From the NCBI RefSeq assembly GCF_903645315.1, contig NZ_CAHJXL010000001.1, positions 3,036,702 to 3,100,701 of the forward strand: 64,000 nucleotides of DNA, in the 5' to 3' direction. The stretch is from Victivallis sp. Marseille-Q1083 (GTDB taxonomy: Bacteria > Verrucomicrobiota > Lentisphaeria > Victivallales > Victivallaceae). A program made the position numbers and the translations under genes. The notes under the pieces were generated by a model, which was not told the DNA's origin, did not search any database, and saw nothing but the letters and a program-made list of their open reading frames with translations. Below, piece after piece: positions 11,329-64,000 of the stretch (position 1 is its first letter; each line of letters opens with the position of its first letter).

Positions 11329-11467
11329 TTTTCCGGCGGAAACGGAACCCGCCGGCTTGTTTTTTGGGGCGGGACCATGTAATGTAAAAGGTTGGAGTAA
11401 CGTATGCCTTGCCGGAAAACGCGATTGGGGAGCCGGCGGACAGGAACAAAGAGTGGAAGAAGGGGTG

Positions 11468-47126: not shown

Positions 47127-47212
47127 TAACTCTTTGATTTCCAATTGTTTTTTTTTTCATATTTACCATTTTATTGGAAAATATGAAAAAAACAAAAAAA
47201 GGAACCATATTG

Positions 47213-48796
47213 ATGCCTAAGGCTATACTCAATAAAAGACGTAATGGAACCGGGTCGTTGAAGAAAATGCCGAGCGGATTCTATGCGGTTCAATATTACG
47301 ATGATGACGGCAAGCGGCGTCAGAAAACCTTACTGGACAGAGCCGGAAATCCGACAAAAATAAAGGAGGAAGCAGAACAACTCATACGTCAGCGTTTTGC
47401 CACTAATACAGCTCTGGAGCAGCTTGAATCCAAAGAAGAAGCGATTCTGAAATTGATGGAAACCCGGCAGATGATGGTTAAGTGTAGCTTGACTCTGACG
47501 GAGGCTTGGAATAAGTTCCATGAGTTCAAGGAAGGAACGGTTGAAGCCATCACATTGAAAGGCTACGAAAGTGCGTGGCGAACTTTTATCGGTTATATGT
47601 CAAAAAGACATCCGATCATTGAAAAAATTGGAGAAGTAACCCAGTCGGTATTGGAAGATTATTTCAACTTTCGCAAAGCCCAAAAAGTTTCCGCTCAAAC
47701 TTTCCGGGTTGATACGATCACTTTGAAAAGCGTCTGGCGTAAAGCCCTGGGACCGGAAACCGAAAAACTGTTTCTTGATTTGCCTAAAATTCCGAAAAGT
47801 CAACAATCGCGAGAGCCATTGACCCTTCAGGAACTACAACATATATTCAGTTTATTGTCCTCCGACAGCTTGTATGAACTTAATGATAAGGATGAATATC
47901 GCTGTCTTCTGAAGTTGATGGCTTTTACCGGAATTCGCGGTGGAGAAGGCACTCAAATGACTTGGCAAGATATCAATGAATCCTTTACTGAAATATCATT
48001 TGTACCGAATAAAACGAAAAGATCGTCGCCAGATCCGGTGACTATTCCGATTCATCGTGAATTACGAGCAGAATTATTATATCGCTTTTCCATCCGGGCT
48101 TCCGGTGACGTTTATATCATGCCCAAGCTCCAAATGCGTTATCGCTCCTATACCGGCGCTATCAGCAAAATTATAACCAAAATACTGCAGTCAGCCGGTA
48201 TCATCACGTCTGTGGCTCCGAATGCCCAAGTCAGACGTGCGATACGTAAAACTATTGATCCCCAAACACAAAAGGTAGTAGCAAAGCAATGTAAAATTTG
48301 TCGAAAATCCATGCACAGTGTTCGGCATTATTTTGCTACCATTGCCTCAAAATTGAGTATTGATCCTTTAATCACCCAACGGATTTTGGGACACAAAACA
48401 CTGAAAATGACCAGCCACTATACGCACATCGATATTGAGCAGAAGAGCGAAGCGATTGCCCGATTGCCGGACATTTATCCGGCAGATACAATTGATGTGG
48501 TCGCTGTTGATGTTACCGCGAATACACGGCAGGACTTATTGTCTGAAATAACGCTTGCATTACATGATTTGCCACTCAATCACCTCATGCTGATCCGCGA
48601 TCAATTAAGGCTTGTTTCACACCATAATCATGAGCTGCCGCTGAATATACCTCTGCCGGCCGTAACTGAAAAAAGATTGAATGAAGTATTGTTTTTTAAC
48701 AATATAGAAGTCGGAAAGATCTTCGGCATATCGGATTCGATGGTCACTCGTTACCTGAAAAAATACGATTTGCCCACTAGCCTGAATGTTGCATGA
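47213..48796 (+). pseudogene. Tyrosine recombinase/integrase, 3' end displaced by an IS insertion
   Basis: Start at 47213 after AAAGGA; another ATG lies at 47183. An Arm/SAM-like N-terminal part (about 60-210) is followed by a catalytic domain with Arg in FTGIRGGEG, HxxR in MHSVRHYFAT, and ILGHKTLKMTSHYTH giving the last His and the Tyr nucleophile. A C-terminal HTH-like segment (VGKIFGISDSMVTRYLKKY) follows. IS copy 2 enters at 48780, so the frame ends with five IS-derived codons. Catalytic residues are intact, so activity may persist. It is the likely recombinase for integration at tRNA-Lys. Confidence 0.85.
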
Positions 48797-50361
48797 AACT
48801 TTCGAATCGTCGAGAAATGTTCAGAAGATTCGGAAGTTTTTATTTTCAGAGTCGGATATTGTCGTTTTTTTGCAAATTGAGCATATTCCCCCTTTCCCCC
48901 GTTGTTGTTCGGCGAGCCGGGGACAGCTCTCCAAGGTTTTATTCCCAAGCGATGATTTTCGCAGCGATCAAGCGGAGGAGTTCCTGATTTGGACAAGCAC
49001 TTGAAAGAGCAACATAAATTTTTCTGGTATTCCGCCGAATAATGGCACCGATTTTCACCAGGTATAAGCGAATGCTGCCGCAGGTAGCCTCGGCAAATTG
49101 AGTTCCTGTCAACAACAATGCCCGAAACCGTTCCATGAGAATATAAGCCAAACTTGAAAGCAGAAGCCGGAATTGATTTGCCGCAAAGTCATGGCAGCTC
49201 GTCCGATCAGCGAAAAGATCCAGCTGCTGTTCCTTGATCCTGTTTTCCATCTCACCTCGGGCGCAATAGACTTTTTCATAAAGATATTGTCCATCATCAT
49301 CAAGATTGGTGACGATAAAACGATTATTCGGTCCGGGGGAGTTGAATTCCGCTTTGGCAATCACCCGGCGCGGGTATTTCCAAGTTCCTGCCGCATATTC
49401 GAACTGAGTAAACAGTTTTGCTTTTTCATGTGTTTCGTTGTAAAGTGCTTCCGCTTTCACTTGAAGATCTTTTGATAATTCCAGCAAACGTGGATTTTTC
49501 GCCAATCCGACAATATATTTGACCTCATTTTTATCACACCAGTTCAGCATTTTCTGCCGACAAAAGCCACTGTCTCCCCGGAAAATAATCTTAACCTTCG
49601 GCCATTTCTGCCGAAAGCGCTTTACCAGTAGCGAGAGAATCGCCCAAGCATGCTTGGCCGCATCAATTTTTGATGGACGCAAATAAGCCACAAGCAATTG
49701 ATCCCCGCAGAAAACATACAACGGCAAAAAGCAATAGTGGTCATAATAGCCATGAAAAAAGCGATTTTCCTGCATCCCGTAAGTGAGGTCATCGGTAGCA
49801 TCGAAATCAAGAATCAATTCTCGAGGCGGCGTGGAGAAACTTTCGATAAAGAATTCGACAAACAATCGGCTCAAATCTACGCAAGCACGACGATCGATTC
49901 CATTTTCGAATCGACATAAAGTGCTTGGAGTGGCGAGTTGACGATCACGACCGACAACAGTTTGAATCAGCGGATCAGTTCGCAATTCATGATGGTCATT
50001 GAGATCTTCATGGCCGGCAACCAAACCAAAAACTCGTTGACGAAGCATGCTCAGATAGGAATGCTCAACTTTTCCGGGCTGTCGAATATCAAAAGAATCC
50101 AGCAGGTTACCGGCGCGCCGGGTCAAACCGAGTTTGCGGTCGAATTCTTTCACAAAAAGCAACCCGCCGTCACTGCTGATATCTCCACCGGCGAAATTGA
50201 ATTCAATTTTTCTGCTTTTCGGACCTTGAAAGACCGGAATCGAAACATTACATTTTGTCATTGGCAGACCTCGGCGTTATATTGTGATGTAAGATATTAC
50301 AATATAATACGTTAGTCGAGAATCTGCCTCTTTGTTTTTGAAAATTTACGCAATATTCAGG
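48781..50361 (-). mobile_element. IS1380-family element, copy 2 (intact)
   Basis: 1581 bp, in minus orientation. Imperfect terminal repeats begin CCTGAAT at each end, and a 4-bp duplication CTAG flanks it (48777-48780 and 50362-50365). Inserted in the 3' part of the integrase gene. Confidence 0.95.
48939..50261 (-). CDS. IS1380-family transposase
   Basis: 440 residues. RNase H-like DDE core: Asp in LILDFDATDDLTYG, the conserved YYDHYCFLPLYVFCGDQLL, Asp in IIFRGDSGFCRQKM, and Glu in EMENRIKEQQLDLF with the following NQFRLLLSSLAYILM. Cuts and joins DNA at the element's ends. The same protein is encoded by copy 3. Confidence 0.95.
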   Translation of the reverse strand: MTKCNVSIPVFQGPKSRKIEFNFAGGDISSDGGLLFVKEFDRKLGLTRRAGNLLDSFDIRQPGKVEHSYLSMLRQRVFGLVAGHEDLNDHHELRTDPLIQTVVGRDRQLATPSTLCRFENGIDRRACVDLSRLFVEFFIESFSTPPRELILDFDATDDLTYGMQENRFFHGYYDHYCFLPLYVFCGDQLLVAYLRPSKIDAAKHAWAILSLLVKRFRQKWPKVKIIFRGDSGFCRQKMLNWCDKNEVKYIVGLAKNPRLLELSKDLQVKAEALYNETHEKAKLFTQFEYAAGTWKYPRRVIAKAEFNSPGPNNRFIVTNLDDDGQYLYEKVYCARGEMENRIKEQQLDLFADRTSCHDFAANQFRLLLSSLAYILMERFRALLLTGTQFAEATCGSIRLYLVKIGAIIRRNTRKIYVALSSACPNQELLRLIAAKIIAWE

Positions 50362-50435
50362 CTAGACGGAAGGCGACACAAACGTTGTGTCCAGAACAAT
50401 TAAATACTATTAGGTTGAAGCTTTTAAGAATGTGA
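50362..50435 (+). pseudogene. Displaced 3' end of the integrase gene
   Basis: Removing IS copy 2 and one CTAG restores the integrase frame from DLPT into RRKATQTLCPEQLNTIRLKL and a stop at 50433-50435, so the original protein was about 20 residues longer than the sequence left before the IS. Confidence 0.8.
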
Positions 50436-50510: not shown

Positions 50511-52589
50511 TTAAGTTTCGGAATCCACTGGGATTTTTCTTCCTCCAGCGGTTTTGAACAGACGATGTGCGAGGCTTGCAGCGATCCATACCAGTGCAAA
50601 CGGCCAAACGTTATCACCGTCGTAAAGCGCGTTCTGGAGCAAAACAGCCAGAGCAAAGGAAAGAATCAGATACATCCAGGTGAAGACCACCAGCGGCATC
50701 CGGTTGATGGTTTTGACCTTAAGCCTCGGTTTATGCCGAATTGCGCACCAAATCAGCTCCAGTCCGACCGTGCACATCGCCCACAGCATCTCCAAAACAA
50801 AGGCAGCGCACCACACCCCCAACGTCGCCAGAGTAACGATGCCGATGCCTGGACAGCGCCAGATAAAACAATCGTTGCCGGAGTAGATCAACCATATTCC
50901 GCCGAAAACCGGCAGCAGAGCCACGGTAAAAACGGCGAGACGGCAATAATCGTACCAATAGAACCAGCGGGTTTTCAAATTGCCGTTTTTTCCCGCCTCC
51001 TGTGTCGCCGGGCAATGGCGTTCAACCCGCGCGCCGCAGACTTTCCGGCATTTCTGCTTGAATGCCGACCGGACAAAAACATCGCCGTTTTTCAGCAGCC
51101 GTCCTGATTGCCAGAATATGTACCCGACCTGGCATTGTCCGCGAGGCCCGCCAGCCTGAAGTGTGGTGAAGGATACGATGTCCACCTTATAATCTTTTTG
51201 TTCCGACCAGCCTTCGGAATAGTTGTCGGACCTGGAGTAATCGCCTTTCAGTCCGCCTGATTGAGAGTCGCCGAGATTTTGGCTGCGTCGCCGAATTACC
51301 TCTTGTCCGATACTGTCGGCCGCCCATTTGTTGGTTTCATGATCGCCGTTTTGGCAGAAAAACTTCGTCCCGAGGTTTCCCAGCAGCGACGCAGCTTTTT
51401 CCTTGCCGTAGCCGTCATGGAGGTTGCCCAGATTCTGGGTTGCATACACCGTCAAGGTTCGACTGGATCTGGCGGTGGTCTGAAACTTCTGGTCATAATC
51501 GATGGCGAAAAACTGGCATTCATCGGCCCACAGAAAAACCGGACGGGCGTCGGGATTGGTAATGTCTTCACGGCGCTCAATCATTTTTTGAAAACATAAC
51601 TTGATGATGGCGGCAGTCATTTGTCCGACCAGTCCGTATTGTTTGACATCCTGATCGACAATCAGGATTTTGCCCTGCCGGTAAAGCTCTTCCATATGCA
51701 GAGAAGAACTGCGGGCGCCAAAGCAACGCAGAAATTCTCCGCGAAGCATGGAGTCGGCCAGTACGGTAAAACTGGAAATGGTATTGCTGCGGGTACGTTC
51801 GTCCAGTTGCGGAAATTCGATCAAAAAATAATTCCAGGCCAATTCATAGTCCGGGCATTCGGTATGACCGTGATATGCTGCTTGCAACAGCAACAGGCTG
51901 GAATATTGCTGCGCATGTTCCAGCGTTTGATGGTTTACCGCATCGCCGTTGAGTTCAATATAATATTTCTGATATGCTTGGGCGGTCGACCTGAAATCTC
52001 CGTATTCATCCGCTTCGGCTTGACAAAAGACGACAAAGCCTTCGACGTATTTTTGAATATTTTCCGCGACTTCATTGGAGCGCAGCGCAGTATCGATGGT
52101 TTTCTTGATGTTGGGCAATGTTACCTGCTCTTTGGCAAGAACCAGCAGCGATATGGCATTGCGCAGAAATTGCTTGATCGCATTTTGCCAATATTCATCG
52201 GAAGTGCCGGCTTGTTTCTTATCTTTCGAGATTTTGACAACCTCCAGAAAGATATTGACCACATTCTCAACCTGTCCGCCGCCGGCTTCCCTGGGGCGGG
52301 AAAATTCTTCATCCAGAAAAGCAAATGTTTCATTACTCAGCCGGAGCAGATCGCCGGTCCGGCCGGTTTCGGCGGCATAGTCTTCCCATGTGCCAGGTTC
52401 GTCCGGTTTTGCGCAGAAGACGATTCCGCCATACCCAAGCTGCAGGAATTTCAAGGCTATATTCCGCAAAGGGCCGGAGGATTTTCCGGAGCCGGTCATG
52501 CCGAAAACCATGACGCCGGTGGCCGCATCACGGGTCGTCCAGGCATTGCCCTCCAGATTCAGTATTTCGGTGTCAAGAACCGAGGCCAT
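50511..52589 (-). CDS. VirD4/TraG-like type IV coupling ATPase with C-terminal membrane helices
   Basis: 692 residues from the ATG at 52589, overlapping the previous stop (TGATG). Walker A GMTGSGKSSG lies at residues 30-39, immediately after a short N-terminus, so the usual N-terminal membrane anchor is missing. Walker B VFLWADECQFF is near 351-361, then TARSSRTLTVYATQNL as in the TraG/TraD group. Instead, four hydrophobic stretches occupy about residues 550-680 (LAVFTVALLPVFGG, then IGIVTLATLGVWCAAFVLEM and others). It likely delivers a DNA-protein substrate to a secretion channel. No VirB-type channel genes are in the window. Confidence 0.8.
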   Translation of the reverse strand: MASVLDTEILNLEGNAWTTRDAATGVMVFGMTGSGKSSGPLRNIALKFLQLGYGGIVFCAKPDEPGTWEDYAAETGRTGDLLRLSNETFAFLDEEFSRPREAGGGQVENVVNIFLEVVKISKDKKQAGTSDEYWQNAIKQFLRNAISLLVLAKEQVTLPNIKKTIDTALRSNEVAENIQKYVEGFVVFCQAEADEYGDFRSTAQAYQKYYIELNGDAVNHQTLEHAQQYSSLLLLQAAYHGHTECPDYELAWNYFLIEFPQLDERTRSNTISSFTVLADSMLRGEFLRCFGARSSSLHMEELYRQGKILIVDQDVKQYGLVGQMTAAIIKLCFQKMIERREDITNPDARPVFLWADECQFFAIDYDQKFQTTARSSRTLTVYATQNLGNLHDGYGKEKAASLLGNLGTKFFCQNGDHETNKWAADSIGQEVIRRRSQNLGDSQSGGLKGDYSRSDNYSEGWSEQKDYKVDIVSFTTLQAGGPRGQCQVGYIFWQSGRLLKNGDVFVRSAFKQKCRKVCGARVERHCPATQEAGKNGNLKTRWFYWYDYCRLAVFTVALLPVFGGIWLIYSGNDCFIWRCPGIGIVTLATLGVWCAAFVLEMLWAMCTVGLELIWCAIRHKPRLKVKTINRMPLVVFTWMYLILSFALAVLLQNALYDGDNVWPFALVWIAASLAHRLFKTAGGRKIPVDSET

Positions 52590-53002
52590 CAGGTCCACCA
52601 CCAGCAGTAAAGATGAAATGCTCCGATGCCGGCCAGCAGCGCCAACAGCAACAGACAAACAGTGAAGACACATTTATTGGCAAAACGTTCGCGATGAATA
52701 GCGATCAACCGGCGAAACTGCAATCGGTAGTGAATCTGAAAACGGGTTGCCAGCTCCAGTGTCTGTTCGTGGTTCTGCTGCAGAATCGCGTTGATGCGCT
52801 CCAGCATTACTTCATTACGTTTCACTTCGGATTGGAGCCTGCGATCCTGTTCGCGATGCAGAAGTTCCAACTCCAGAATGATGCCATAGGTCAGGTCGTT
52901 TGGATCGCCGGTTTCGCGATATAATCCGAGCAACCGGCGAAGTTCCTCGGACGAAACCTCCGAGTCGGCCATCGTATTCATGCACAGTTCTCTCAGGTTC
53001 AT
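52589..53002 (-). CDS. Coiled-coil protein with a C-terminal membrane helix
   Basis: 137 residues, with a clear AGGAG site before the ATG. Residues about 12-100 are charged and helical (LELELLHREQDRRLQSEVKR), likely a coiled coil; residues about 108-132 form one membrane segment (FTVCLLLLALLAGIGAF). No family recognised. It overlaps the coupling ATPase start, so it may anchor or regulate that ATPase at the membrane, replacing its absent N-terminal domain (inference). Confidence 0.7.
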   Translation of the reverse strand: MNLRELCMNTMADSEVSSEELRRLLGLYRETGDPNDLTYGIILELELLHREQDRRLQSEVKRNEVMLERINAILQQNHEQTLELATRFQIHYRLQFRRLIAIHRERFANKCVFTVCLLLLALLAGIGAFHLYCWWWT

Positions 53003-53067: not shown

Positions 53068-55938
53068 TTATCGGGACATAGCTGGTTCCTGAATGGTTTT
53101 ACCGGGCGCTTTGTTTCTACCCGGTTCCGGCGTTTCTTTACCTGGTTCCCTGGCGGCTTTTGCCATCAGGTCCTTCGACAGATCCCGAAATGTGCCTTGC
53201 GTCATAGCTGCAATTTTCTTTTCGCTCATGACGGGAACCATGCCGCGTTCCATCCATTTCCGCAGCATACCTTCTTGCTGGATGGTTATCGGTTCGGCCT
53301 GAACTGCCTTACCAATAATTTCGGACGCCTGTTTTTTCGTGATGTCAGTGGGAATTTCATCGATTTTACCGGTCTTGTGAAGTTCCTCCAATTTAGCCAA
53401 TTGATTCTCCGTGGCCGGTCCATCCGGTTCCTGTTTATGAACTTGCGCCTCATTGGATTTACCGGAACCAATATCCAGCAGTTTGCTGGCTTCGGCAAAA
53501 GTCAGATTGTCGTTTTCATATTTTGACAGAGGTTCGAGCCGACCTTGTTCCACCATGTTGCGGATGGCGTTTTTTTGTTTGGAGGACGCCGGCGCATTGG
53601 CAAGAATCTCCCGTGCCTGTCCGAAATTGATCTTCTCCAGTTGCGTTTTGGACATCGGTTCGATCCGTTTCTGGTCGATCAGTTCCTGAATCCGGGCCAG
53701 TTGTTTGCCGGTAGCCGGATCGTCCGGCTCATGCGGTTTTGACTGGGAATATGCGGCATCCAGAATCTCACTGGCCGTCCCTTTGGTCAGATTTTTCGTA
53801 TCCACAGGCTCAATTCTCCGGTCGGCAATCAACTCTTCGACTCGCTTGATCTGTTCTTCCGAAGCCGGCCCCAGCCCCAGAATTTTACTGGCTTTCCCCA
53901 TGCTCAACGTGGCAATCTCCCGTTCTCCGATAGTCGGAGACGGGATGATTGCCGCCAACGCCTTGCCGTCAAAGCCGCCGGCTTTCAGCATTTCGCGCAC
54001 CGCCTGCTTCTGGTTTTCCGTAGCCGGAGCCAATGCCAGTGTGATATTGATCATCTGTCGGGCTTCAGGTTCAGTCAGAATTTTCCAGCGTTCCGACTGC
54101 ATCCGGGGAACCAGCCCTTTGTCCATCAGCCGACGTAGTTCCTGTCGGGTGCGATCCGTAACGGCGGGAGCATCTGGATCAGGGGCAATATTGCGATTTG
54201 GAACGTTTTTGAAAATTATTCTGGCTTCACTGCCGGAAATATTTTCAATGTCATCTTGTGACAGCTTAACTCGTCCCTCGGCAGCCATGATGCTCAACGC
54301 CACCTTTTGTTTGATGGAGGCCGGAGTATCGTTCATCTGAACCAGATCCTTCAGAAAATCCGGCGAGAGTTCCCGCATTTGCTGTTGCGTCATCTCCAAC
54401 CTGCCGGAAGCGATCAACCCCGACGCGATGTTCTGATAATCCTCATTTGTCAATTCGTAAGCAGCCATTTTCGTTCTCCTTTCGTTTGTTTCACTTTGCG
54501 GCGCCGGAAGCGTCGCGCGAATTTTGTCTTGGTCAAACGGGATGCCGGACGCTTCAAAAAGCAATTCCAGCCCGGTTATATTTTCAGGGGTTCCCGCCAC
54601 GTTCAAGGTATCAAGCCAATCGGCAGGCCGTGCCTGGGTCAACAGCATCGGCAAGCCGTTGACAATTTCCTCCGCTTTTTCCGGTGACAATTTTCGCCAT
54701 GCCTCCAGAGGCAATGGCGGAATGACGCCGGCGGACACAGTTTTGGCGATAATCTCCCGATGATACAGCAGTTGCGCTTCCCGCAGATTGATTGCCGGAT
54801 TCGGTTCAAAGCCGTCCGCCAGCCGGGACGGTGAAAATTTCAACTCCCAGTTTTTCAGTCCGGATTGCAGGTTGCGAAACGAGTGGGAGCCGTCCGCCTT
54901 TACGATCGGATCGGCGGCGTCAATACCCTGCTTGAAGTAATCCAGCCAGGCCACTCCGGCGCGATAGGAAATCGTCTTGTGCAGCACCCGGTCCTCCCAT
55001 TCAGGATGCTGTGCAAAATAAGCCCGCTCCTGCAATTCAAGATGATACTGTTCCTTCGGATTCCGATCCTGCACATATGAGCGGGCGATGCCGTCAGAAC
55101 CGATTCCGCTTTTCCTTTCCCGCGGATATTTGAGCGGCTCTTCCCGTTCCATTTCCTCCCGATAACGCGCCCGTTCGATTTCTTCAAAGGAGGCGTCCGG
55201 ATAACGGCTGCGCAATTTGCTTTCCCACTCATAATCGAAGCCGTATTGATTCTCGCCGGCCAGGTGACTTGAGCGGCTATAGTCCACCACATCCAGCAGC
55301 TCCAGATGGCGCACGCCGCCGTCCGGAGTCGCCATGGCGATTTCCGCAACCGCCAACAGCGGCAGTTTGTCGATTTCCCGTTCGATATGTGAAAAGTCTA
55401 ATTCTGCCATATCAACTGGTTTGGAAAGTCCCATCCGAACCATGCGGCTAAACAGATCAATCTGGGCGGCGCGGTATATTTTCTCCGCCTCCGCCAGATT
55501 TTTGCCAAGGTCCGGTTCAAACGCCTTGCGAATGCCGGCGTCGGAAACCGGAAAATTCCAGCGCCGCAAATTTTGTTGCAAAGCCTCCAAATCCACCACA
55601 TCCGGACTGGAATGCAGGAATTGTTTCCAGGCGTCCGGCGAATATTCCACGCTGATGCGTCCGGTCGGCATATCGGCAAACGCCTGCTTTTGCAGCAGTT
55701 CGCCGGCGCGTTTCTGGAGATTTGTCCTGGAGGCGTCGAACATCGATATTTCGACCGGCTTGCGCTGTGAATCCAGTCCGCTGACGACACCATGATAAAT
55801 CTCTGGAAGATTGTTCACCATTTCATCGAGCCGTTCCCTGGTCAAGCCGTCAAGAGGCATGGGGGCCGCAGCCCCCATGCGCACCAGCCTAGCGGCCAGA
55901 TCACGCTCTTCAAGCGTTATGCTGTTTTCTTCCGCCAT
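53068..55938 (-). CDS. Modular repeat protein of a mobile element, unknown function
   Basis: 956 residues, no recognised domain. The N-terminal half holds three copies of a segment like LVRMGAAAPMP...LPE (about residues 15-48, 163-195, 396-430) and a duplicated block ending FEPDLGKNLAEAEKIY (138-155) and FEPNPAINLREAQLLY (377-392). From about 495 to 925 there are about nine copies of a 36-50 residue helical module with the pattern A-T/S-x-x-Q, then G/R-x-I/L-x-P-M, then A-x-E-I-L (clear at 592, 638, 691, 741, 783, 841, 883). A Pro-rich tail ends it. It overlaps the ParA gene by 29 bases. It may be a scaffold for DNA transfer (inference). Confidence 0.75.
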   Translation of the reverse strand: MAEENSITLEERDLAARLVRMGAAAPMPLDGLTRERLDEMVNNLPEIYHGVVSGLDSQRKPVEISMFDASRTNLQKRAGELLQKQAFADMPTGRISVEYSPDAWKQFLHSSPDVVDLEALQQNLRRWNFPVSDAGIRKAFEPDLGKNLAEAEKIYRAAQIDLFSRMVRMGLSKPVDMAELDFSHIEREIDKLPLLAVAEIAMATPDGGVRHLELLDVVDYSRSSHLAGENQYGFDYEWESKLRSRYPDASFEEIERARYREEMEREEPLKYPRERKSGIGSDGIARSYVQDRNPKEQYHLELQERAYFAQHPEWEDRVLHKTISYRAGVAWLDYFKQGIDAADPIVKADGSHSFRNLQSGLKNWELKFSPSRLADGFEPNPAINLREAQLLYHREIIAKTVSAGVIPPLPLEAWRKLSPEKAEEIVNGLPMLLTQARPADWLDTLNVAGTPENITGLELLFEASGIPFDQDKIRATLPAPQSETNERRTKMAAYELTNEDYQNIASGLIASGRLEMTQQQMRELSPDFLKDLVQMNDTPASIKQKVALSIMAAEGRVKLSQDDIENISGSEARIIFKNVPNRNIAPDPDAPAVTDRTRQELRRLMDKGLVPRMQSERWKILTEPEARQMINITLALAPATENQKQAVREMLKAGGFDGKALAAIIPSPTIGEREIATLSMGKASKILGLGPASEEQIKRVEELIADRRIEPVDTKNLTKGTASEILDAAYSQSKPHEPDDPATGKQLARIQELIDQKRIEPMSKTQLEKINFGQAREILANAPASSKQKNAIRNMVEQGRLEPLSKYENDNLTFAEASKLLDIGSGKSNEAQVHKQEPDGPATENQLAKLEELHKTGKIDEIPTDITKKQASEIIGKAVQAEPITIQQEGMLRKWMERGMVPVMSEKKIAAMTQGTFRDLSKDLMAKAAREPGKETPEPGRNKAPGKTIQEPAMSR
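54475..54482 (-). promoter_or_regulatory. Internal ribosome-binding site inside the modular repeat gene
   Basis: AAAGGAGA lies seven bases before an in-frame ATG at 54468 (residue 491, MAAYELTNED). The site is stronger than that of the full-length start. It would yield a second, 466-residue product holding only the C-terminal repeat array. Confidence 0.65.
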
Positions 55939-56710
55939 CGAGACTTAACACCTCTTTCTTTATTTTTGTTTGCTTTTCCGGCCACAGCACCCGGAATCTC
56001 TGGGCGGCGATTTCATACTGCTTGCGAATGCGGATGATTTGCATATATTGCAACCCCTGAAGTTGCGCCTTGTCCCTCAGCATCTGTCCGTAAGTCAATC
56101 CGGCTTTCCGACTCAAAGTAAGATATTCCGGAGTAAAAAACGGCATTTCGATAATTCGCGTATGCGGCAGCTGCTCCTCCAGTACCGGTTTCAGCGTTTT
56201 TTCGTAATACCAGAAATTTTGTCCGGCAATCAGGTTTCGGATCAGGATCAAGTTAGCCTGCCCGGAAACAAACATTTCCCGGCAATAATCCAGCCAGCGT
56301 AGAAACGTGATGCAACTGTCCACCTCGGCTGTGACGCAGCCGACGATATTGACAGCGATCCTGGCTGCCGCCAATTCCGCAACCGGCACACAATCCAGCC
56401 ACTCCAAAGTGGATTTGCTGGTGCCGGCTTTCATATCGACAATAAAAGCCTTTTCCTGATCGGAATTTGCCTTGAGCTCATTTACGACCCGATCCAACGG
56501 ATATGCTTCCCGGCCATTCTCCGGATCAATGGCGTGCAGCGTTATGGTCGAATTCTTAAATACGGCCGTCAACGATTGATTCTCATTATCACAGTCGTAG
56601 GCGACCACCTGGATTCCGGCATCGATAGCGGTATCAATCAACATCGATGCGCACAGTGTCTTACCCACGCCACCTTTGGTTCCGGCAACAAGAAATAATC
56701 CCATAATCAT
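55910..56710 (-). CDS. ParA/MinD-type P-loop ATPase
   Basis: 266 residues. Deviant Walker A TKGGVGKTLCASML, then VVAYDCDNENQSL and FIVDMKAGTSKSTLEW. The start at 56710 follows AAGGA and directly abuts the stop of the small module gene; the ATG at 56704 is the alternative. ParA-type proteins partition plasmids or position cargo; conjugation-linked relatives (IncP TraL, VirC1) also exist. No ParB-like gene or obvious parS repeats are seen beside it. Its end overlaps the modular repeat gene, so the set is one operon. Confidence 0.85.
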   Translation of the reverse strand: MIMGLFLVAGTKGGVGKTLCASMLIDTAIDAGIQVVAYDCDNENQSLTAVFKNSTITLHAIDPENGREAYPLDRVVNELKANSDQEKAFIVDMKAGTSKSTLEWLDCVPVAELAAARIAVNIVGCVTAEVDSCITFLRWLDYCREMFVSGQANLILIRNLIAGQNFWYYEKTLKPVLEEQLPHTRIIEMPFFTPEYLTLSRKAGLTYGQMLRDKAQLQGLQYMQIIRIRKQYEIAAQRFRVLWPEKQTKIKKEVLSLDGGRKQHNA

Positions 56711-57106
56711 CTATTCCTTCGATTTGTGGTTTTTTCGATTGAAACTACAATCATTTCTTTTCTGTTTCCGGCAATATTCCGACGAACCGTGTTCAATCAG
56801 AATCTCTGCGTCGTGCAACGTCAGCTTCGACAGCTCGGCATCGGTCATGGGAGCGATAAAGCCCCGTTCCATCAACTTCTTCAAACGTGCCCGCTGTTTA
56901 GGGGTAATACCGGAAGCATCAATATCTTTGCAACCGGCCAGCCAGATAATTCCCTTTGCATATTCCATCGAAATTCCTTTCTCAATATCGCTTTCACGAA
57001 TATTCGGCAGTATGCCGGAACGAACAATACGCAGCGCTTTTTCCAGAGTTTTCCCCTCGGCCAGTTCATATCTGCTCAAGGTTTCGACCTGAATTGTAGC
57101 ACTCAT
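56711..57106 (-). CDS. Small protein made of two copies of the same module as the 956-residue protein
   Basis: 131 residues from the ATG at 57106 (AAAGGAG five bases upstream). Residues 20-58 (ALRIVRSGILPNIRES, then GISMEYAKGIIWLAG) and 67-107 (ITPKQRARLKKLMERGFIAP, then LTLHDAEILIEHG) both fit the module pattern of the large neighbour, and the second is closest to that protein's last repeat. A basic tail follows (RKQKRNDCSFNRKNHKSK), possibly nucleic-acid binding. No known family. It sits just before the ParA gene. Confidence 0.7.
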   Translation of the reverse strand: MSATIQVETLSRYELAEGKTLEKALRIVRSGILPNIRESDIEKGISMEYAKGIIWLAGCKDIDASGITPKQRARLKKLMERGFIAPMTDAELSKLTLHDAEILIEHGSSEYCRKQKRNDCSFNRKNHKSKE

Positions 57107-57133
57107 ACCATCTCCTTTTTTCATCACGCGCCA

Positions 57134-57340
57134 TCAATCATTTGGACTTCCACCGAAATTTAACAGCAGGCCGGGATTCGGCTTTTCCGCTTTCGGTTTG
57201 TTGCCATCATGAACATGTTGAACCAGCGCCCGCATAATCATTGTATTTACGGCAATGATTTCCGACTGCTTGAACAACAACATTTCAAACTGTTCCTGCC
57301 GCGCCCGGAATTCCGCCGCTTCCAGATGGGCTCGGATTAA
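57134..57340 (-). pseudogene. Gene remnant cut by IS copy 3
   Basis: An open frame running out of the IS gives about 67 native residues (EAAEFRARQEQFEMLLFKQS, then MRALVQHVHDGNKPKAEKPN) and a stop at 57134. Its 5' part is missing because IS copy 3 replaces it. Helical, no recognised family. It may have been the first gene of the ParA operon. Confidence 0.6.
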
Positions 57341-58921
57341 CCTGAATGTTGCATGAAACTTTCGAATCGTCGAGAAATGTTCAGAAGATTCGGAAGTTTT
57401 TATTTTCAGAGTCGGATATTGTCGTTTTTTTGCAAATTGAGCATATTCCCCCTTTCCCCCGTTGTTGTTCGGCGAGCCGGGGACAGCTCTCCAAGGTTTT
57501 ATTCCCAAGCGATGATTTTCGCAGCGATCAAGCGGAGGAGTTCCTGATTTGGACAAGCACTTGAAAGAGCAACATAAATTTTTCTGGTATTCCGCCGAAT
57601 AATGGCACCGATTTTCACCAGGTATAAGCGAATGCTGCCGCAGGTAGCCTCGGCAAATTGAGTTCCTGTCAACAACAATGCCCGAAACCGTTCCATGAGA
57701 ATATAAGCCAAACTTGAAAGCAGAAGCCGGAATTGATTTGCCGCAAAGTCATGGCAGCTCGTCCGATCAGCGAAAAGATCCAGCTGCTGTTCCTTGATCC
57801 TGTTTTCCATCTCACCTCGGGCGCAATAGACTTTTTCATAAAGATATTGTCCATCATCATCAAGATTGGTGACGATAAAACGATTATTCGGTCCGGGGGA
57901 GTTGAATTCCGCTTTGGCAATCACCCGGCGCGGGTATTTCCAAGTTCCTGCCGCATATTCGAACTGAGTAAACAGTTTTGCTTTTTCATGTGTTTCGTTG
58001 TAAAGTGCTTCCGCTTTCACTTGAAGATCTTTTGATAATTCCAGCAAACGTGGATTTTTCGCCAATCCGACAATATATTTGACCTCATTTTTATCACACC
58101 AGTTCAGCATTTTCTGCCGACAAAAGCCACTGTCTCCCCGGAAAATAATCTTAACCTTCGGCCATTTCTGCCGAAAGCGCTTTACCAGTAGCGAGAGAAT
58201 CGCCCAAGCATGCTTGGCCGCATCAATTTTTGATGGACGCAAATAAGCCACAAGCAATTGATCCCCGCAGAAAACATACAACGGCAAAAAGCAATAGTGG
58301 TCATAATAGCCATGAAAAAAGCGATTTTCCTGCATCCCGTAAGTGAGGTCATCGGTAGCATCGAAATCAAGAATCAATTCTCGAGGCGGCGTGGAAAAAC
58401 TTTCGATAAAGAATTCGACAAACAATCGGCTCAAATCTACGCAAGCACGACGATCGATTCCATTTTCGAATCGACATAAAGTGCTTGGAGTGGCGAGTTG
58501 ACGATCACGACCGACAACAGTTTGAATCAGCGGATCAGTTCGCAATTCATGATGGTCATTGAGATCTTCATGGCCGGCAACCAAACCAAAAACTCGTTGA
58601 CGAAGCATGCTCAGATAGGAATGCTCAACTTTTCCGGGCTGTCGAATATCAAAAGAATCCAGCAGGTTACCGGCGCGCCGGGTCAAACCGAGTTTGCGGT
58701 CGAATTCTTTCACAAAAAGCAACCCGCCGTCACTGCTGATATCTCCACCGGCGAAATTGAATTCAATTTTTCTGCTTTTCGGACCTTGAAAGACCGGAAT
58801 CGAAACATTACATTTTGTCATTGGCAGACCTCGGCGTTATATTGTGATGTAAGATATTACAATATAATACGTTAGTCGAGAATCTGCCTCTTTGTTTTTG
58901 AAAATTTACGCAATATTCAGG
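57341..58921 (-). mobile_element. IS1380-family element, copy 3 (intact, mismatched flanks)
   Basis: 1581 bp, nearly identical to copy 2 (a visible difference at 58396). Left flank ends TTAA and right flank begins CTAA, so there is no matching 4-bp duplication, unlike copies 1 and 2. Different broken genes lie on each side. Confidence 0.93.
57499..58821 (-). CDS. IS1380-family transposase
   Basis: 440 residues, same sequence as the copy 2 transposase as far as I can read. The Asp, Asp and Glu positions of the DDE core are intact, so the element should be able to move and could act on the ends of the degraded copy 1. Confidence 0.95.
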   Translation of the reverse strand: MTKCNVSIPVFQGPKSRKIEFNFAGGDISSDGGLLFVKEFDRKLGLTRRAGNLLDSFDIRQPGKVEHSYLSMLRQRVFGLVAGHEDLNDHHELRTDPLIQTVVGRDRQLATPSTLCRFENGIDRRACVDLSRLFVEFFIESFSTPPRELILDFDATDDLTYGMQENRFFHGYYDHYCFLPLYVFCGDQLLVAYLRPSKIDAAKHAWAILSLLVKRFRQKWPKVKIIFRGDSGFCRQKMLNWCDKNEVKYIVGLAKNPRLLELSKDLQVKAEALYNETHEKAKLFTQFEYAAGTWKYPRRVIAKAEFNSPGPNNRFIVTNLDDDGQYLYEKVYCARGEMENRIKEQQLDLFADRTSCHDFAANQFRLLLSSLAYILMERFRALLLTGTQFAEATCGSIRLYLVKIGAIIRRNTRKIYVALSSACPNQELLRLIAAKIIAWE

Positions 58922-61873
58922 CTAACCACACAATATTTTTATAACGCCAAAAACCAATTATTCCGGGTTACAGAAACAGGACATCCTGTCATGCTCTTCG
59001 TTTACGACGCACTCGGCAACCTGACCCAGAGCGGATATGATGCCGATGATAACAATAATTTGACAGTGGCCTCATCGGATCGGCTTTTGGTGACAGAGCA
59101 ACTCTTTGTCAAAGAAAGCAACTTCTGGTTTTTCAAAACCATCCAATCGGCCTATGCCACAACCAATAACGGAACTGCAACCACCATACTTCAATCGAAA
59201 GAAAAATTATCTGGTCTCCCGACCGGAACTGTTGCCGAAACCCAACATATTGATGTGAATGGAAATGTCATTACCGACACGATTCAGGTGGATAGAGCCA
59301 ATCGCAAAACCACTCTGAATATCCTGTATCCGTTTTCAACTGTAGCGCAGCAGGAAATTACAGTCAATGGATTGCTTCAGTCCTCTCGAACACCATCAAA
59401 TCTGACAACAACCTATTCCTATGATGCGCTTGGCCGGGTTATCGGTATCACAGATCCCAGAATTGGAGAAAGCCAGATCACGTACTATTCTTCCGGTTCC
59501 GGTAAAATAGGGAAACTTTGCACACAGACCGATGCGGCAGGAAATATGGTTACTTATGACTATGAAAGCACAACCGGGTTAGTGAAATCAGTACAAAACG
59601 CCTTGAATCAAAAGACATATTATACATACAATAACCTGAACCAGGTTGTCCGAAGTTGGGGGGATTGTGATTATCCGATGGAAAGAATTTATGATTCACA
59701 AGGACAGTTAACGCATTCCAAAACATATCGCAGTGGCACCAGTTGGAGCAATGTGTCATGGCCTGGGGGCAATATTACGGCTGATGTTACTCAATGGACA
59801 TATGACGCCGCATCCGGTCTGGTTAAGGTGAAAACCGATCCGGCTGGAAAATCAATATCTTATATTTATAATCCAAATGGAACATTGCAAAAGAGAACCT
59901 GGGCAAGGCAGAGTAACAATCAGCCGCTGACAACAACTTATACCTATAATGTCTTCAACGAATTGATAAAAATCGATTATTCGGATACGACGCCGGACAT
60001 CACTATCACTTATGATCGGCTCGGACGACCGCTTACCGTAGCGGATGCCGTTGGTACAAGAATATTTACCTATAATGCGCAATTGGCTTTGCAAAAAGAG
60101 GCAATCAATGGTATTTATACGAAAGAGCTAATTCACAATTATGCGACCACCGGCATGAAAGGGCGCAGCCTGGGTATGAATATCGGCAATGTCAATTTAT
60201 ACACTTATGGTTATGACCAATATGGACGCTTGAATCAAGTGTCCACTTCTGCCGGTGCTTTCAACTATGTTTATCTTGCCAATAGTGACCTGATCGCGTC
60301 CATTGGACGTCCCAACAGCTTGACAACCTCCTATACCTATGATGATGATCGCAATCTGTTGACGAAAATCATCGATGGCTCCATGAGTACATTGACTTAT
60401 CTCAACGACGCTCTTGGGCGTCGTACCAGTGTAAGCCGAACTGGCAGTGTTTTCTCAGCACCTGAATTATTGAGTTATACTTATGATGCCCGCTCGGAAC
60501 TTGCCGGCGCTTCATCCAACAATAATGCCTCCTATAATTATACCTATACTTACGATCCGATCGGCAATCGCAAGGCTGCCGGGATCGCCGGAGTCAATTG
60601 GACTTATACCGCTAATAACCTTAATCAATATACGGCATTGAACAAAGCCGGAACGGTTCAGAACCCGACCTATGACGCTGATGGCAATATGTTGACCCGT
60701 GACGGTTGGACGCAAACCTGGAATGCCGAAAACCGATTAATTAAAGCGGAAAAAGGATCGGCAAAGCTGGAGTTTGTTTACGACTACATGGGCCGCCGGG
60801 TTGAGAAGAAAGTTTATAACGGCACTACTTTGACCAGCCATATCCGTTTTGTTTATGACGGTTACAAACTAGTCGAAGAACTCAATGGTTTGAGCAACAA
60901 TGCCGTCATGCGCCGCTATACCTGGCAGCCGGTTATGATGGATGTACCTTTGACGGTATTCGACGCCGCCGCCAGCAAGACGTATACTTATCATGCCGAT
61001 GCCAACAAAAATATCACTGATTTGACGGATTCTGCCGGAGTCAATGTCGCTCACTATGAATACAGTCCTTTCGGGCAACTGGTGAAGTCTGGCGGAAGTT
61101 ATGCCGCGACCAATGTTTTTACCTGGAGCGGAGAATATCTGGATCGCGAAACCGGTCTGGTCTATTATAATTTCCGCGAATACGATCCATTGTTGGGACG
61201 CTGGTTGTCCCGTGATCCTATCGGTGAAAACGGCGGAATCAATCTATATGCCATGAGTGCAAACATGGTGACCAATGTGTGGGATAATTTGGGATTACTG
61301 AATTGCGCTAAGCTGCGGGAGGATATCCTCAATAACGATCGAATGATGGACAATTATCGCGATAGAATCAATGAAGCTTTAAACGACAGCGGATGGGGGG
61401 AGGTTACCACGACAGCTTCTAGCGCCGCAATTGCTGGCTTAGATTATGGACTGTTTCTTGTGCAGGAGAGAATGGAAAACCTAGGGGAAGCTGTGCCTAC
61501 GGGACTTAAATATACGGGGTATGGTATTGGAGGTCTCGGCATTGGAATGGGATTATACGGAGCTTATCAAGCATTTTCCACAGGTGATATAACTGAGGGA
61601 ATGGTTTCCGTTGGGGAATCACTTGGTGGTGCAGCTGTTATGGCAACTGGTTATAGACCATTTGCATTTTTAGCACCGCCTTTAGCATTTCTCGCAACAG
61701 GAGAAGCAATTGGGCGCAGTGCTATCAATATTGGTTATGGAATATATATAGCGAAAATTGAAGATGAAACAAATCAAAAAATGTTGGAAGGATATGGAAA
61801 ATTATTGGATAGGCGTATGCAAAAGGGAGAAGATTTGCGATATTTGTATAATAAATGTTGTGTTAAATACTAA
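58922..61873 (+). CDS. RHS-repeat polymorphic toxin, 5'-truncated by IS copy 3
   Basis: About 983 native residues; the frame enters from the IS, so signal peptide and N-terminal part are gone. Many YD repeats (FVYDALGNLTQS, SYDALGRVIGIT, YDRLGRPLTVAD, TYDPIGNRKAAG, VYDYMGRRVEKK) lead to the RHS core end YYNFREYDPLLGRWLSRDPI. After NVWDNLGLL, a variable tip of 190 residues begins at 61301: charged helices, then a Gly/Ala-rich hydrophobic stretch (GIGGLGIGMGLYGAYQAF, AFLAPPLAFLATG), which suggests a membrane-acting toxin (inference). The tip is visibly more AT-rich than the core. Confidence 0.88.
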   Translation, partial: LTTQYFYNAKNQLFRVTETGHPVMLFVYDALGNLTQSGYDADDNNNLTVASSDRLLVTEQLFVKESNFWFFKTIQSAYATTNNGTATTILQSKEKLSGLPTGTVAETQHIDVNGNVITDTIQVDRANRKTTLNILYPFSTVAQQEITVNGLLQSSRTPSNLTTTYSYDALGRVIGITDPRIGESQITYYSSGSGKIGKLCTQTDAAGNMVTYDYESTTGLVKSVQNALNQKTYYTYNNLNQVVRSWGDCDYPMERIYDSQGQLTHSKTYRSGTSWSNVSWPGGNITADVTQWTYDAASGLVKVKTDPAGKSISYIYNPNGTLQKRTWARQSNNQPLTTTYTYNVFNELIKIDYSDTTPDITITYDRLGRPLTVADAVGTRIFTYNAQLALQKEAINGIYTKELIHNYATTGMKGRSLGMNIGNVNLYTYGYDQYGRLNQVSTSAGAFNYVYLANSDLIASIGRPNSLTTSYTYDDDRNLLTKIIDGSMSTLTYLNDALGRRTSVSRTGSVFSAPELLSYTYDARSELAGASSNNNASYNYTYTYDPIGNRKAAGIAGVNWTYTANNLNQYTALNKAGTVQNPTYDADGNMLTRDGWTQTWNAENRLIKAEKGSAKLEFVYDYMGRRVEKKVYNGTTLTSHIRFVYDGYKLVEELNGLSNNAVMRRYTWQPVMMDVPLTVFDAAASKTYTYHADANKNITDLTDSAGVNVAHYEYSPFGQLVKSGGSYAATNVFTWSGEYLDRETGLVYYNFREYDPLLGRWLSRDPIGENGGINLYAMSANMVTNVWDNLGLLNCAKLREDILNNDRMMDNYRDRINEALNDSGWGEVTTTASSAAIAGLDYGLFLVQERMENLGEAVPTGLKYTGYGIGGLGIGMGLYGAYQAFSTGDITEGMVSVGESLGGAAVMATGYRPFAFLAPPLAFLATGEAIGRSAINIGYGIYIAKIEDETNQKMLEGYGKLLDRRMQKGEDLRYLYNKCCVKY

Positions 61874-61888
61874 ATCAAGGTTTTTGCA

Positions 61889-62770
61889 ATGCGTGCTTTT
61901 ATTTTATATACCATTTGTCGTTACACAATGCTTATGGGCTTAATCATTGCTATTTCATTGTTTGTATGCCATTCTATAAATACTGGAATAAAGTTTAAAA
62001 TTGTCGCTACAGTGAGTTTATATATTATCCCGCTGTGGTTACTTTTTAGTTGTTTCAGTAAAATGACATTCTTTGGAGCTTATTTGGGGTATTATCCTGT
62101 TTCTGTTAAGCAAATAAAGAAAAAAATTGCAAAACAGAATGAATATATGTTAATATCTTTTTGCTCAGTATGGAGGTTTCATATATTACTAGTTTCAATT
62201 TTAGGAATGGCTGTATTATATTTTATAGCAATCATACTATATCCCAATGTTCCATATTTCATTACTGTAGGAGCTATTCTAACCGCTATCGCTTATTTTT
62301 ATACGGCACTTTATATTTATTACGTTTATGGCTACAAGATGCATAAACATTTGAATGATAGATTTAAAATAACAAATTTTGAAAACGAAGGAATCAAGGT
62401 GATAAATAAATATAATTTTCAGACTGCTCAAGAAATCGGCAAATATTATTTTTCACAAAAACTTGATTACAAAAACGGTTATCGCTGGTTCTTCATGACT
62501 TGGCTTTCTGCTAAAACTTCAATTCCCGCAGATTTGCAACAATATATAGATTCAAGGGATAAAGCATTAATAAATTTATTTCTCCCTGATCCTAATGCGG
62601 AAGACCCCTTGGAAAAAGATCTTTTTCCATTATGGGCATATATTTACTGGACACTTATCGGTAATGACAATGACATAAGAGAAAAATATTATCAGGAAGC
62701 CGCAAAAATCGGATTTGATGATACGCAATGGCAATTATTTTGCCCGAAACAGATATCTGCAACAGCATAA
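61889..62770 (+). CDS. Membrane protein, probable immunity protein for the RHS tip
   Basis: 293 residues starting 16 bases after the RHS stop, with an AAGG site. Four membrane helices are visible (about 8-27, 36-58, 92-116, 122-146), then a soluble helical domain (residues about 155-293, YRWFFMTWLSAK and LFPLWAYIYWTLIG). Very AT-rich, unlike the backbone. No family recognised. Position directly after a toxin tip and its membrane nature fit immunity against a membrane-acting toxin. Confidence 0.55.
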   Translation: MRAFILYTICRYTMLMGLIIAISLFVCHSINTGIKFKIVATVSLYIIPLWLLFSCFSKMTFFGAYLGYYPVSVKQIKKKIAKQNEYMLISFCSVWRFHILLVSILGMAVLYFIAIILYPNVPYFITVGAILTAIAYFYTALYIYYVYGYKMHKHLNDRFKITNFENEGIKVINKYNFQTAQEIGKYYFSQKLDYKNGYRWFFMTWLSAKTSIPADLQQYIDSRDKALINLFLPDPNAEDPLEKDLFPLWAYIYWTLIGNDNDIREKYYQEAAKIGFDDTQWQLFCPKQISATA

Positions 62771-62785
62771 ATAAAAGGTGGAAAA

Positions 62786-63646
62786 ATGAAACGCGTTTTA
62801 TGGCTTCCCACGGGATTATGTCTGTTATTGTGTGATATTGCTCAAGCAGATAAATTACCTGAATCTAAGGCTGATCTTCCCGTAATAACAATTACTTCTT
62901 TACCTGATAATGTCAAGCTTATCGTCGGGATGACCGACGATAATTCTTACCTTCCTCGTGTTCAAGCCATACATGCACTGGGTAGAAATCTGCCGCAGGA
63001 CCAGATTGATGCTTTTTATGATTTTCTCTTTCAAAAGCTTGAAGATCAGGAATTGCCGGATCTGGAGTTCAACGGCTTGAAAAATGAATTGACCTGGGCA
63101 TTGATCTGGCAGGAGAGAGTTCCAAAAGAGCTGGCCAAACATCTCGATACCATGTTCCGGGATAAATCCTATGATGTGACCTGGCGGGATTACTGCGTCC
63201 AGTTTTTCGGCAAGTATTATCGTTACGTCGGAGAAGCCGACCGCAAAATCCTGAAAGCCGGGCTGGAAGAGGCCTTGAACGAATGGCAGAACCGAATCGC
63301 CGGAACTGCCGGTTATATGCTCTGGCAGATGTCCGACTATCCCGGATTCGACAAGCAAGCTATCATTGACAAGATTGTCGAAATATTGAATCAACCGGAT
63401 TGTTCCAATGCTTCAAAGTTACCCTTGCTGCAAGCCTGCGGCGAAGCCGGAGATAAGCGAGCTCTACCGCAAGCCCGCGAGCTGATGAAAACCTGCAAAG
63501 ATATCATGCTTCGCGCCTCGGCTATCGCCGCAGTCGGCTATCTTGGTGACGCCACTGACATCCCATATCTTGAAACCCTGAGCAAACAAACCGATCCCAG
63601 AGTACAAAAACCTGCCCAGGCCGCTTTGGTGAAGCTGCAAAAGTAA
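62786..63646 (+). CDS. Secreted HEAT-repeat protein
   Basis: 286 residues with an AAAAGGTGG site. Signal peptide (VLWLPTGLCLLLCDIAQA), a helical middle, and HEAT-type repeats in the last 90 residues (PLLQACGEAGDKRALPQARE, then LRASAIAAVGYLGDATDIPYL). Likely a periplasmic or surface scaffold. It sits between the RHS module and the next secreted protein, so it may help RHS display or be part of a tandem RHS locus (inference). Confidence 0.75.
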   Translation: MKRVLWLPTGLCLLLCDIAQADKLPESKADLPVITITSLPDNVKLIVGMTDDNSYLPRVQAIHALGRNLPQDQIDAFYDFLFQKLEDQELPDLEFNGLKNELTWALIWQERVPKELAKHLDTMFRDKSYDVTWRDYCVQFFGKYYRYVGEADRKILKAGLEEALNEWQNRIAGTAGYMLWQMSDYPGFDKQAIIDKIVEILNQPDCSNASKLPLLQACGEAGDKRALPQARELMKTCKDIMLRASAIAAVGYLGDATDIPYLETLSKQTDPRVQKPAQAALVKLQK

Positions 63647-63707
63647 AAGAGATATAATTTTATAAATAATAATTTATTTATAAAATATCAAAGCAAGGGA
63701 GAGGAAA

Positions 63708-64000
63708 ATGAACAGAAATCATGTTATCGGTTTCAGTATGCTATTTGCAGCCTTATTTTCTAGTTTGGCTTATGCGAATCTCCCCTGCGAAGGCGGCGAG
63801 AACTGCGAAAAGGAGTGTGAATGTGGTGAAAACTCTTCATCATCCGGTAACGGTGGCGTCGGAACCGGCGGCCCCGGTCATGGCGGTGAAACCGGTGGCG
63901 GAGCATCCTTTGGAACCGGCGGAGGAACCCAAAGTTTTGCTGATGGTTCTGGCGGCGGGGTTATCCAACCGACCGTGATGCGCAACGCCGGGAGCGGTAC
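63708..64000 (+). CDS. Start of a secreted Gly-rich protein, cut by the window end
   Basis: The ATG at 63708 follows AAGGGAGAGG. A signal peptide (FSMLFAALFSSLAYA) is followed by a Cys-rich patch (CEGGENCEKECECGE) and a Gly/Ser/Thr-rich stretch (GGVGTGGPGHGGETGGG). No stop before base 64000. From the context it may be the N-terminus of another RHS-type protein, but nothing in the visible part proves it. Confidence 0.6.
   Translation, partial: MNRNHVIGFSMLFAALFSSLAYANLPCEGGENCEKECECGENSSSSGNGGVGTGGPGHGGETGGGASFGTGGGTQSFADGSGGGVIQPTVMRNAGSG

Follow-up and report, generated by a model that had tools for sequence, protein, structure and literature searches.

In the VirB/VirD4 system of Agrobacterium, the ParA-like protein VirC1 together with VirC2 links the relaxase, the DNA and the VirD4 receptor (PMC8406263, PMC3297438; here and below, citations refer to excerpts of the papers). 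Par-like proteins are also required or stimulatory in the gonococcal, R388, R1-16 and pED208 systems, and VirC1/VirC2, the gonococcal ParAB and the Par proteins of pED208 join the relaxosome to the type IV coupling protein, T4CP (PMC8406263, PMC8716806, PMC3297438). When pED208 lost ParA or ParB1, protein export dropped while plasmid transfer did not (PMC8406263). The BID domain of Bartonella and relatives, located at the C-terminus and followed by a basic tail, forms a bipartite export signal of the type IV secretion system (T4SS) that is common to alphaproteobacterial relaxases, toxins and effectors (Beps) (PMC6509941). Here, we analyzed a stretch of 64,000 nucleotides (the window) from Victivallis sp. 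Marseille-Q1083, contig NZ_CAHJXL010000001.1, which carries an operon encoding a long repeat protein, p956, together with a ParA/MinD-type ATPase and a T4CP. The end of p956 shares homology with a MobF relaxase C-terminus. To our knowledge, T4SS cargo recognition is understood for few systems, mostly proteobacterial, and literature listings revealed no evident paper on conjugation or type IV secretion of this kind in Lentisphaerae or Victivallis, nor one on the domain family DUF3072 discussed below.

The five open reading frames (ORFs) of the operon are uninterrupted in the window and follow each other, from right to left, on the minus strand:

56711..57127, minus strand: p138, small and basic, with one module at residues 26-65 and another at 74-113; 138 aa from a GTG start, 131 aa from an inner start at 57106
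55910..56710, minus strand: ParA/MinD-type ATPase, 266 aa; Walker A TKGGVGKT with signature lysine, Pfam CbiA 7.5e-8
53068..55938, minus strand: p956, the repeat-built protein of 956 aa (p9xx family), from the ORF, module profile and AlphaFold model
52589..53002, minus strand: p137, 137 aa, whose C-terminal part contains a hydrophobic stretch (by eye); its place between p956 and T4CP is conserved (ORF and relatives)
50511..52673, minus strand: T4CP of the VirD4/TraG type, Pfam TraG-D_C 1.9e-13; relatives suggest a true start near 52589

An earlier note on this DNA had placed repeat proteins on both sides of a ParA-type ATPase, in one operon with the coupling ATPase, and the ORF map and the two Pfam domains confirm this. 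The motif KGG[VI]GK[TS] is present in 7/7 ParA proteins examined. The window ParA also contains the sequence DMKAG, which we take to sit at the switch II position of other ParA proteins.

Akin to VirC1/VirC2, the operon combines a ParA/MinD-like ATPase that would serve a T4SS with a partner gene. However, the excerpts on that system mention no long repeat protein encoded between ParA and T4CP (PMC8406263, PMC3297438), p138 has no detected DNA-binding family, and the ParA is likened to VirC1 by role and context rather than by measured kinship. Par proteins also serve the T4SS of the gonococcal genetic island, where they are required for DNA secretion and contact the relaxase. There, the partner is of the ParB type and the excerpt describes no repeat protein (PMC8716806).

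The C-terminus of p956 resembles that of MobF relaxases

Modules were scored with a profile built from 12 copies, all from the relatives G006 and G023 and none from the window. TrwC-domain proteins of 1346-1625 aa from related genomes (Pfam E-values of 5.8e-62 and 8e-65) bear modules at their C-terminus. The relaxase of locus L029 has two clear copies (10.3 and 32.7 bits), those of L025 and L026 one clear and two weak copies each. In a BLASTP comparison, the end of the L029 relaxase matched p956 residues 840-944 with 32% identity over 106 aa (E 2e-11), the match being collinear with the last two p956 modules and running into the tail:

53149..53424, minus strand: last two modules (p956 residues 839-930), homologous to the MobF relaxase C-terminus by BLASTP
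53071..53148, minus strand: C-terminal tail (residues 931-956), pLDDT <50, terminating in PAMSR (model and tail comparison)

Judged by sequence, the last two p956 modules and the tail thus have a homolog in the C-terminal end of a MobF relaxase from a related genome, a link that is new here. MobF relaxases (TrwC/TraI) and p956 differ in that neither the TrwC relaxase domain nor a helicase domain was matched by Pfam in p956, whereas the two true MobF proteins match the same library with the E-values given above. The earlier note had set the repeats apart from known families. This does not hold for the last two copies and the tail; p956 as a whole, however, lacks a relaxase domain, and hence the homology redirects the idea of a scaffold protein rather than refuting it.

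TrwC matches were found in 8/9 genomes with a p9xx protein or its diverged counterpart p8xx, against 1.1 expected (17/137 genomes of the order), always on another contig, the contigs being short. L138 (G051:C76, 888-5201) and L141 (G055:C45, 5215-9676) encode another type of MobF, which lacks the shared C-terminal motif and has a ParA-like gene of its own nearby.

The extreme C-termini are also similar. The p9xx proteins terminate in PAMSR, PAMSR, PEMAR, PVRSR, PGMSR and PGMSR, the p8xx proteins in SMER, SMER, TLER, AMDR or RGIE, and eight relaxases in GIDL, GIDI, GMDI, GMDL or GMDR; the 174-aa module protein adjoining ParA in G024 terminates in RGNDLDM. The last four residues of 420 mechanically called ORFs, a background that includes spurious ORFs, were scored against GMDL/GMDR from four relaxases without a detected module, in a test devised after the tails had been noticed. 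Twelve of the best 13 scores belonged to relaxases (5), p9xx (4) and p8xx (3) proteins, and the rank test gave p 4e-5 for p9xx and 0.05 for p8xx. Scores of at least 10 were reached by 7/12 p9xx/p8xx proteins and by 1/398 other ORFs. The terminal pattern [GAS][MI][DES][LIR], picked after inspection, selected 15/424 ORFs, namely the 8 relaxases (one of which, in L027, is a relaxase fragment with 27% identity over 313 aa outside the modules) and 7 p9xx/p8xx proteins. A narrow DNA pattern for the tail, run on 14 genomes, gave three matches: two known relaxases and one not ending a listed ORF.

The arrangement recalls the BID signal, as p956 and the relaxases, too, share a C-terminal helical unit and a tail between relaxase and non-relaxase proteins, and BID is likewise multi-copy (PMC6509941). 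It differs in size (about 40-45 aa per module against about 100) and in number, with up to nine modules in a row here; moreover, BID is a signal for export, and export would here be an expectation drawn from the comparison. Neither p956 nor any of 30 single module copies had a BID family among its Pfam matches, Pfam being taken to hold a BID model and no positive control having been run. The sequence points to a terminal unit common to relaxases and to a partner protein encoded beside their candidate receptor, with a ParA ATPase in between. We favor, at a confidence just short of even, the reading that p956 is a loading adaptor between relaxosome and T4CP with a C-terminal docking unit.

The repeat array of p956

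Seven stretches of p956 scored at least 10 bits with the module profile (residues 538-578, 637-651, 690-729, 739-783, 781-824, 839-878 and 882-919) and four weaker ones 0.1-5.0 bits; among 300 shuffled versions of each protein, the top score was 6.1 bits for p956 and 3.9 bits for p138. An AlphaFold model (alignment of 6 sequences; mean pLDDT 76, pTM 0.46) contains 12 helical units as counted from secondary structure, nine in residues 498-930 and three degenerate ones in the N-terminal half, which is predicted as mixed alpha/beta:

53149..54447, minus strand: array of nine helical modules (residues 498-930), from profile matches and the model
54658..54798, minus strand: degenerate module 3 (residues 381-427), from the model; 2.1 bits with the profile
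55372..55509, minus strand: degenerate module 2 (residues 144-189), from the model; the equivalent region of G006 scores 11.1 bits
55813..55914, minus strand: degenerate module 1 (residues 9-42), from the model's secondary structure, motif by eye

Most of the nine C-terminal units are predicted as two helices, the first about 12 and the second about 10 residues long, with a loop and often a further short helix between them. As the pTM is low, the model does not fix how the units are arranged relative to each other. The earlier note had counted about a dozen copies building most of the protein; the count agrees with the nine plus three modeled units, but the clear copies are limited to the C-terminal 45% of p956 and do not make up most of it.

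No single family among those searched spans p956. In Pfam, it matched DUF3072 (PF11272) alone, with 19.2 bits and thus under the family cut-off of 27.5. A relaxase, primase or phage structural protein was considered and rejected, since Pfam, NCBIfam and PHROGs returned no family besides DUF3072 and a single PHROG without assigned function (E 0.053). The earlier note had named a confident match of this kind as what would refute its reading. A check for a polyvalent protein of conjugative elements, which would combine several such domains in one chain, revealed no enzyme or effector domain in the three libraries, only one weak match to a viral model, 'large polyvalent protein-associated' (E 6.9e-4, TM 0.10).

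DUF3072 also matches 7/30 single module copies weakly, with a best E-value of 7.6e-6. Module proteins occur in other surroundings as well. In L065 (G078:C109, 6250-7471) two of them adjoin ORFs that resemble, by eye, a DNA polymerase beta clamp and a ThiF-like protein, and in L067 (G097:C19, 876-1442) a 188-aa protein with three clear modules is encoded downstream of a helicase-like ORF (by eye). The DUF3072 matches and the position of modules beside DnaN-like and helicase-like ORFs would fit a generic DUF3072-like repeat of mobile elements that binds protein or nucleic acid and was spread by domain shuffling, with no single common receptor. We regard this as improbable: the strongest match to a relaxase runs collinearly through both final modules into the tail, and the terminal residues are also alike, which is more than the shuffling of one repeat requires.

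Conservation of the operon and the p138-ParA pair

The earlier note had proposed a profile search built from the repeats, in which other ParA/T4CP loci would count in favor of its reading and absence of the repeats from related loci against it. A T4CP match was found in 23 places, of which 11 were testable, having an intact 5' end and sufficient upstream DNA; the other 12 were gene fragments, ends at contig borders or unopened weak matches. A homologous repeat protein, p9xx or p8xx, precedes the T4CP in 11/11 testable places, which counts in favor. As with VirC1, a ParA is encoded alongside the T4CP, in 8/9 loci whose DNA extends further.

Three of the related genomes are Lentisphaeria genomes from metagenomes. 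In G023 (two contigs), G131 and G033, a lipoprotein and a small membrane protein (both by eye) are followed by the p138-like protein, ParA, p9xx, the p137-like protein and T4CP; in G006 the contig terminates within ParA. The p9xx proteins have 23-33% identity to p956. A diverged operon in G024 encodes a lipoprotein, ParA, the 174-aa module protein, a 283-aa protein, the 838-aa p8xx, an 84-aa protein and the T4CP, and parts of this type occur in G051, G076 and G078. Compared by hhalign, the p9xx and p8xx families are homologous across 133 columns inside the module region, with a probability of 94.7 and an E-value of 6e-8. Upstream of the operon, the relatives carry genes resembling VirB4 (P-loop_TraG), VirB9 (CagX, scoring under the cut-off) and VirB10 (TrbI), and several of their loci are adjoined by integrases or a serine recombinase. 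A diverged coupling protein with 39-40% identity lies at a contig end in L133 (G026:C353, 4030-5886).

The p9xx family profile matched in 13/137 genomes of the order, there in full length or in the module only, and in 8/387 genomes of a phylum sample, all 8 from the same order, to which the p9xx arrangement was confined in these searches. No p956 relative was found in viral contigs or plasmids at the sensitivity of the searches made. Distant T4CP relatives are present on plasmids (9 records, about 27-32% identity). Three of these plasmids were opened (Skermanella, Acuticoccus and Nitrosospira), and in their gene tables, which are incomplete, no large repeat protein is annotated adjoining the T4CP. 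In Skermanella, a distance of about 6 kb separates a ParA gene from the T4CP, and in Acuticoccus a ParA gene follows two small genes downstream; the portion of the Nitrosospira gene table shown has none.

In p138, one module copy was detected by sequence (21.3 bits, residues 74-113). The predicted model has two helical units, so that of the two copies which the earlier note had seen in a 131-residue protein the second rests on the model and not on the sequence score, and the ORF extends to 138 aa from the GTG. The relatives of p138 have an extra N-terminal stretch that is missing in the window copy. Neither a ParB nor another DNA-binding or any other family was matched by p138 in Pfam, NCBIfam and PHROGs. 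It is basic, as are three relatives (pI, the isoelectric point, 8.9-9.9), whereas p956 is acidic (pI 5.5), which makes DNA organization by direct binding of p956 less likely than a protein-protein role and fits p956 as a protein scaffold with p138 as possible DNA partner.

The signature lysine in the Walker A motif of ParA, the basic p138-like proteins and a weak match to a phage ParA-like partition family (4.7e-5) are also what a ParABS-like partition system would display, with p138 binding a centromere, p956 as accessory and the link to the T4CP a mere matter of gene order. We consider this quite unlikely. The linkage to the T4CP persists across genera, the diverged p8xx type included, integrase or recombinase genes adjoin several of the clusters (replication genes were not searched for), and no ParB or DNA-binding family was found for p138, although these are misses only.

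A possible route from relaxosome to coupling protein

For the loading adaptor favored above, we propose the following model. The window segment would be the leftover of an integrated conjugative element from a Lentisphaeria-related bacterium, and the operon p138-ParA-p956-p137-T4CP the loading module of its T4SS. The last two modules and the tail of p956 would be the same C-terminal unit that is borne by some MobF relaxases of the order. By analogy to BID, this unit most likely docks on the T4CP or on a partner of it, so that p956 and the relaxase would meet at a common receptor. Gathering or positioning of the complex is probably the task of the VirC1-like ParA, with p138, the basic module protein, as a likely partner of the DNA or of ParA, and p956 would act as adaptor from relaxosome to T4CP or be co-exported with the DNA. 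More tentatively still, two helical modules in tandem, each of about 42 residues, and a tail [GA]-[MI]-[DSE]-[RL], present in relaxases and in a dedicated multi-module loading scaffold that works with a VirC1-like ParA, might represent a new class of T4SS docking signal and a relaxosome-targeting system of its own in Lentisphaeria. The proposed roles, ParA-assisted relaxosome recruitment and C-terminal T4SS signals, are known in kind, whereas the parts themselves are not. The earlier note had suggested a scaffold that organizes or moves the DNA or the relaxosome of the element. The conserved loci and the ParA-type relaxosome organizers of other systems (PMC8406263, PMC8716806, PMC3297438) speak for this; the acidic p956 speaks against direct DNA binding. 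The role of ParA-type proteins in conjugation thereby becomes testable in a group without evident conjugation literature.

The common module pair and the similar tail end may also mean that p956 is mainly a T4SS substrate, exported to the recipient via a relaxase-like C-terminal signal and aiding establishment of the element there, with ParA for loading or partition only. A conjugation system does export non-relaxase proteins, including ParA and the single-stranded DNA-binding protein SSB (PMC8406263). The last 40 residues of the six p9xx proteins have net charges of +1 to +6, three of them +5 or +6 (no background was computed), but the values for p956 (+3) and G033 (+1) are low. As noted, the three libraries revealed no effector or enzymatic domain in p956, and its length of about 950 aa, its 12 repeats and its site between ParA and T4CP suit a structural part equally. 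Export as the main role is rather unlikely in our view.

Several observations weigh against p956 as a loading adaptor. No relaxase was seen in the examined T4SS clusters of the relatives and the TrwC matches of G006, G131 and G024 are only fragments, so that the partner relaxase is a presumed one. In G078:C61, a VirB4 fragment replaces ParA and the front half of p8xx, and ParA is missing there; the gene order around ParA is not the same in p9xx and p8xx clusters. Since the module proteins of L065 and L067 have no clear T4SS link, the module may be a general one of mobile elements. The tail p-values overstate independence because the sequences are related (those of G006 and G023b are 84% identical), and the tails of G023b (VRSR), G023a (EMAR), G051 (TLER) and two G076 p8xx proteins (RGIE) fit poorly. 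Among relaxases, the tail does not fit in L062, L142, L138, L141 and L147, and it is present with no module detected in L136, L137, L143 and L146. Given these tail-only relaxases and the single clear copy in L025 and L026, module and tail may be separate things. Finally, the narrow DNA pattern, which misses other codons, yielded no further proteins with a relaxase-type end in the 14 genomes.

Genomic setting and decay of the window copy

The window belongs to a genome of 4.8 Mb in 5 contigs. The region around the operon contains a tRNA-Lys and three copies of an IS1380-family insertion sequence (IS). Copy 1 is broken, lies between the tRNA-Lys and the integrase and has equal flanking tetranucleotides (TTAG):

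44898: tRNA-Lys, before the broken IS1380 copy 1
47174..48796, plus strand: tyrosine integrase of the element, by domain match; 22-26% identity to four integrases of relatives
48777..50365, minus strand: IS1380-family copy 2, between integrase and T4CP, CTAG on both flanks
57134..57337, minus strand: what is left of a small gene, by eye for a membrane protein, that is conserved upstream of p138 and is here interrupted by IS1380, from comparison with relatives
57338..58925, minus strand: IS1380-family copy 3, the broken upstream end of the operon, flanking tetranucleotides unequal (TTAA/CTAA)

In a search for the ends of the element that covered exact but not diverged repeats, no 18-base word of the tRNA-Lys 3' end recurred in the window or in the 40 kb on its right. 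The features of an integrative conjugative element are divided: integrase, VirB4/9/10-like genes and T4CP are present in the relatives, with no relaxase in their examined T4SS clusters, and profile searches of the window genome gave no match to TrwC, to the relaxase family PF03432 or to TrbI. Because IS1380 cuts the operon and no TrwC relaxase or TrbI was detected in the genome, the window operon looks, from its sequence, like the remnant of a T4SS system. A deletion beside IS1380 copy 3 would account for the absent T4SS part; a single mutation equally accounts for the unequal tetranucleotides.

Beyond IS1380 copy 3 starts an RHS/YD-repeat island, which covers window positions 58892-64000 and L014 1-17875. 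It contains several partial RHS copies with short ORFs between them and adjoining IS1380 copies. Inside an IS1380 copy of L014, tandem duplications of 137-138 bp are present at 10346-10621 and 11244-11518, the second with an undetermined base; they are probably an assembly artefact.

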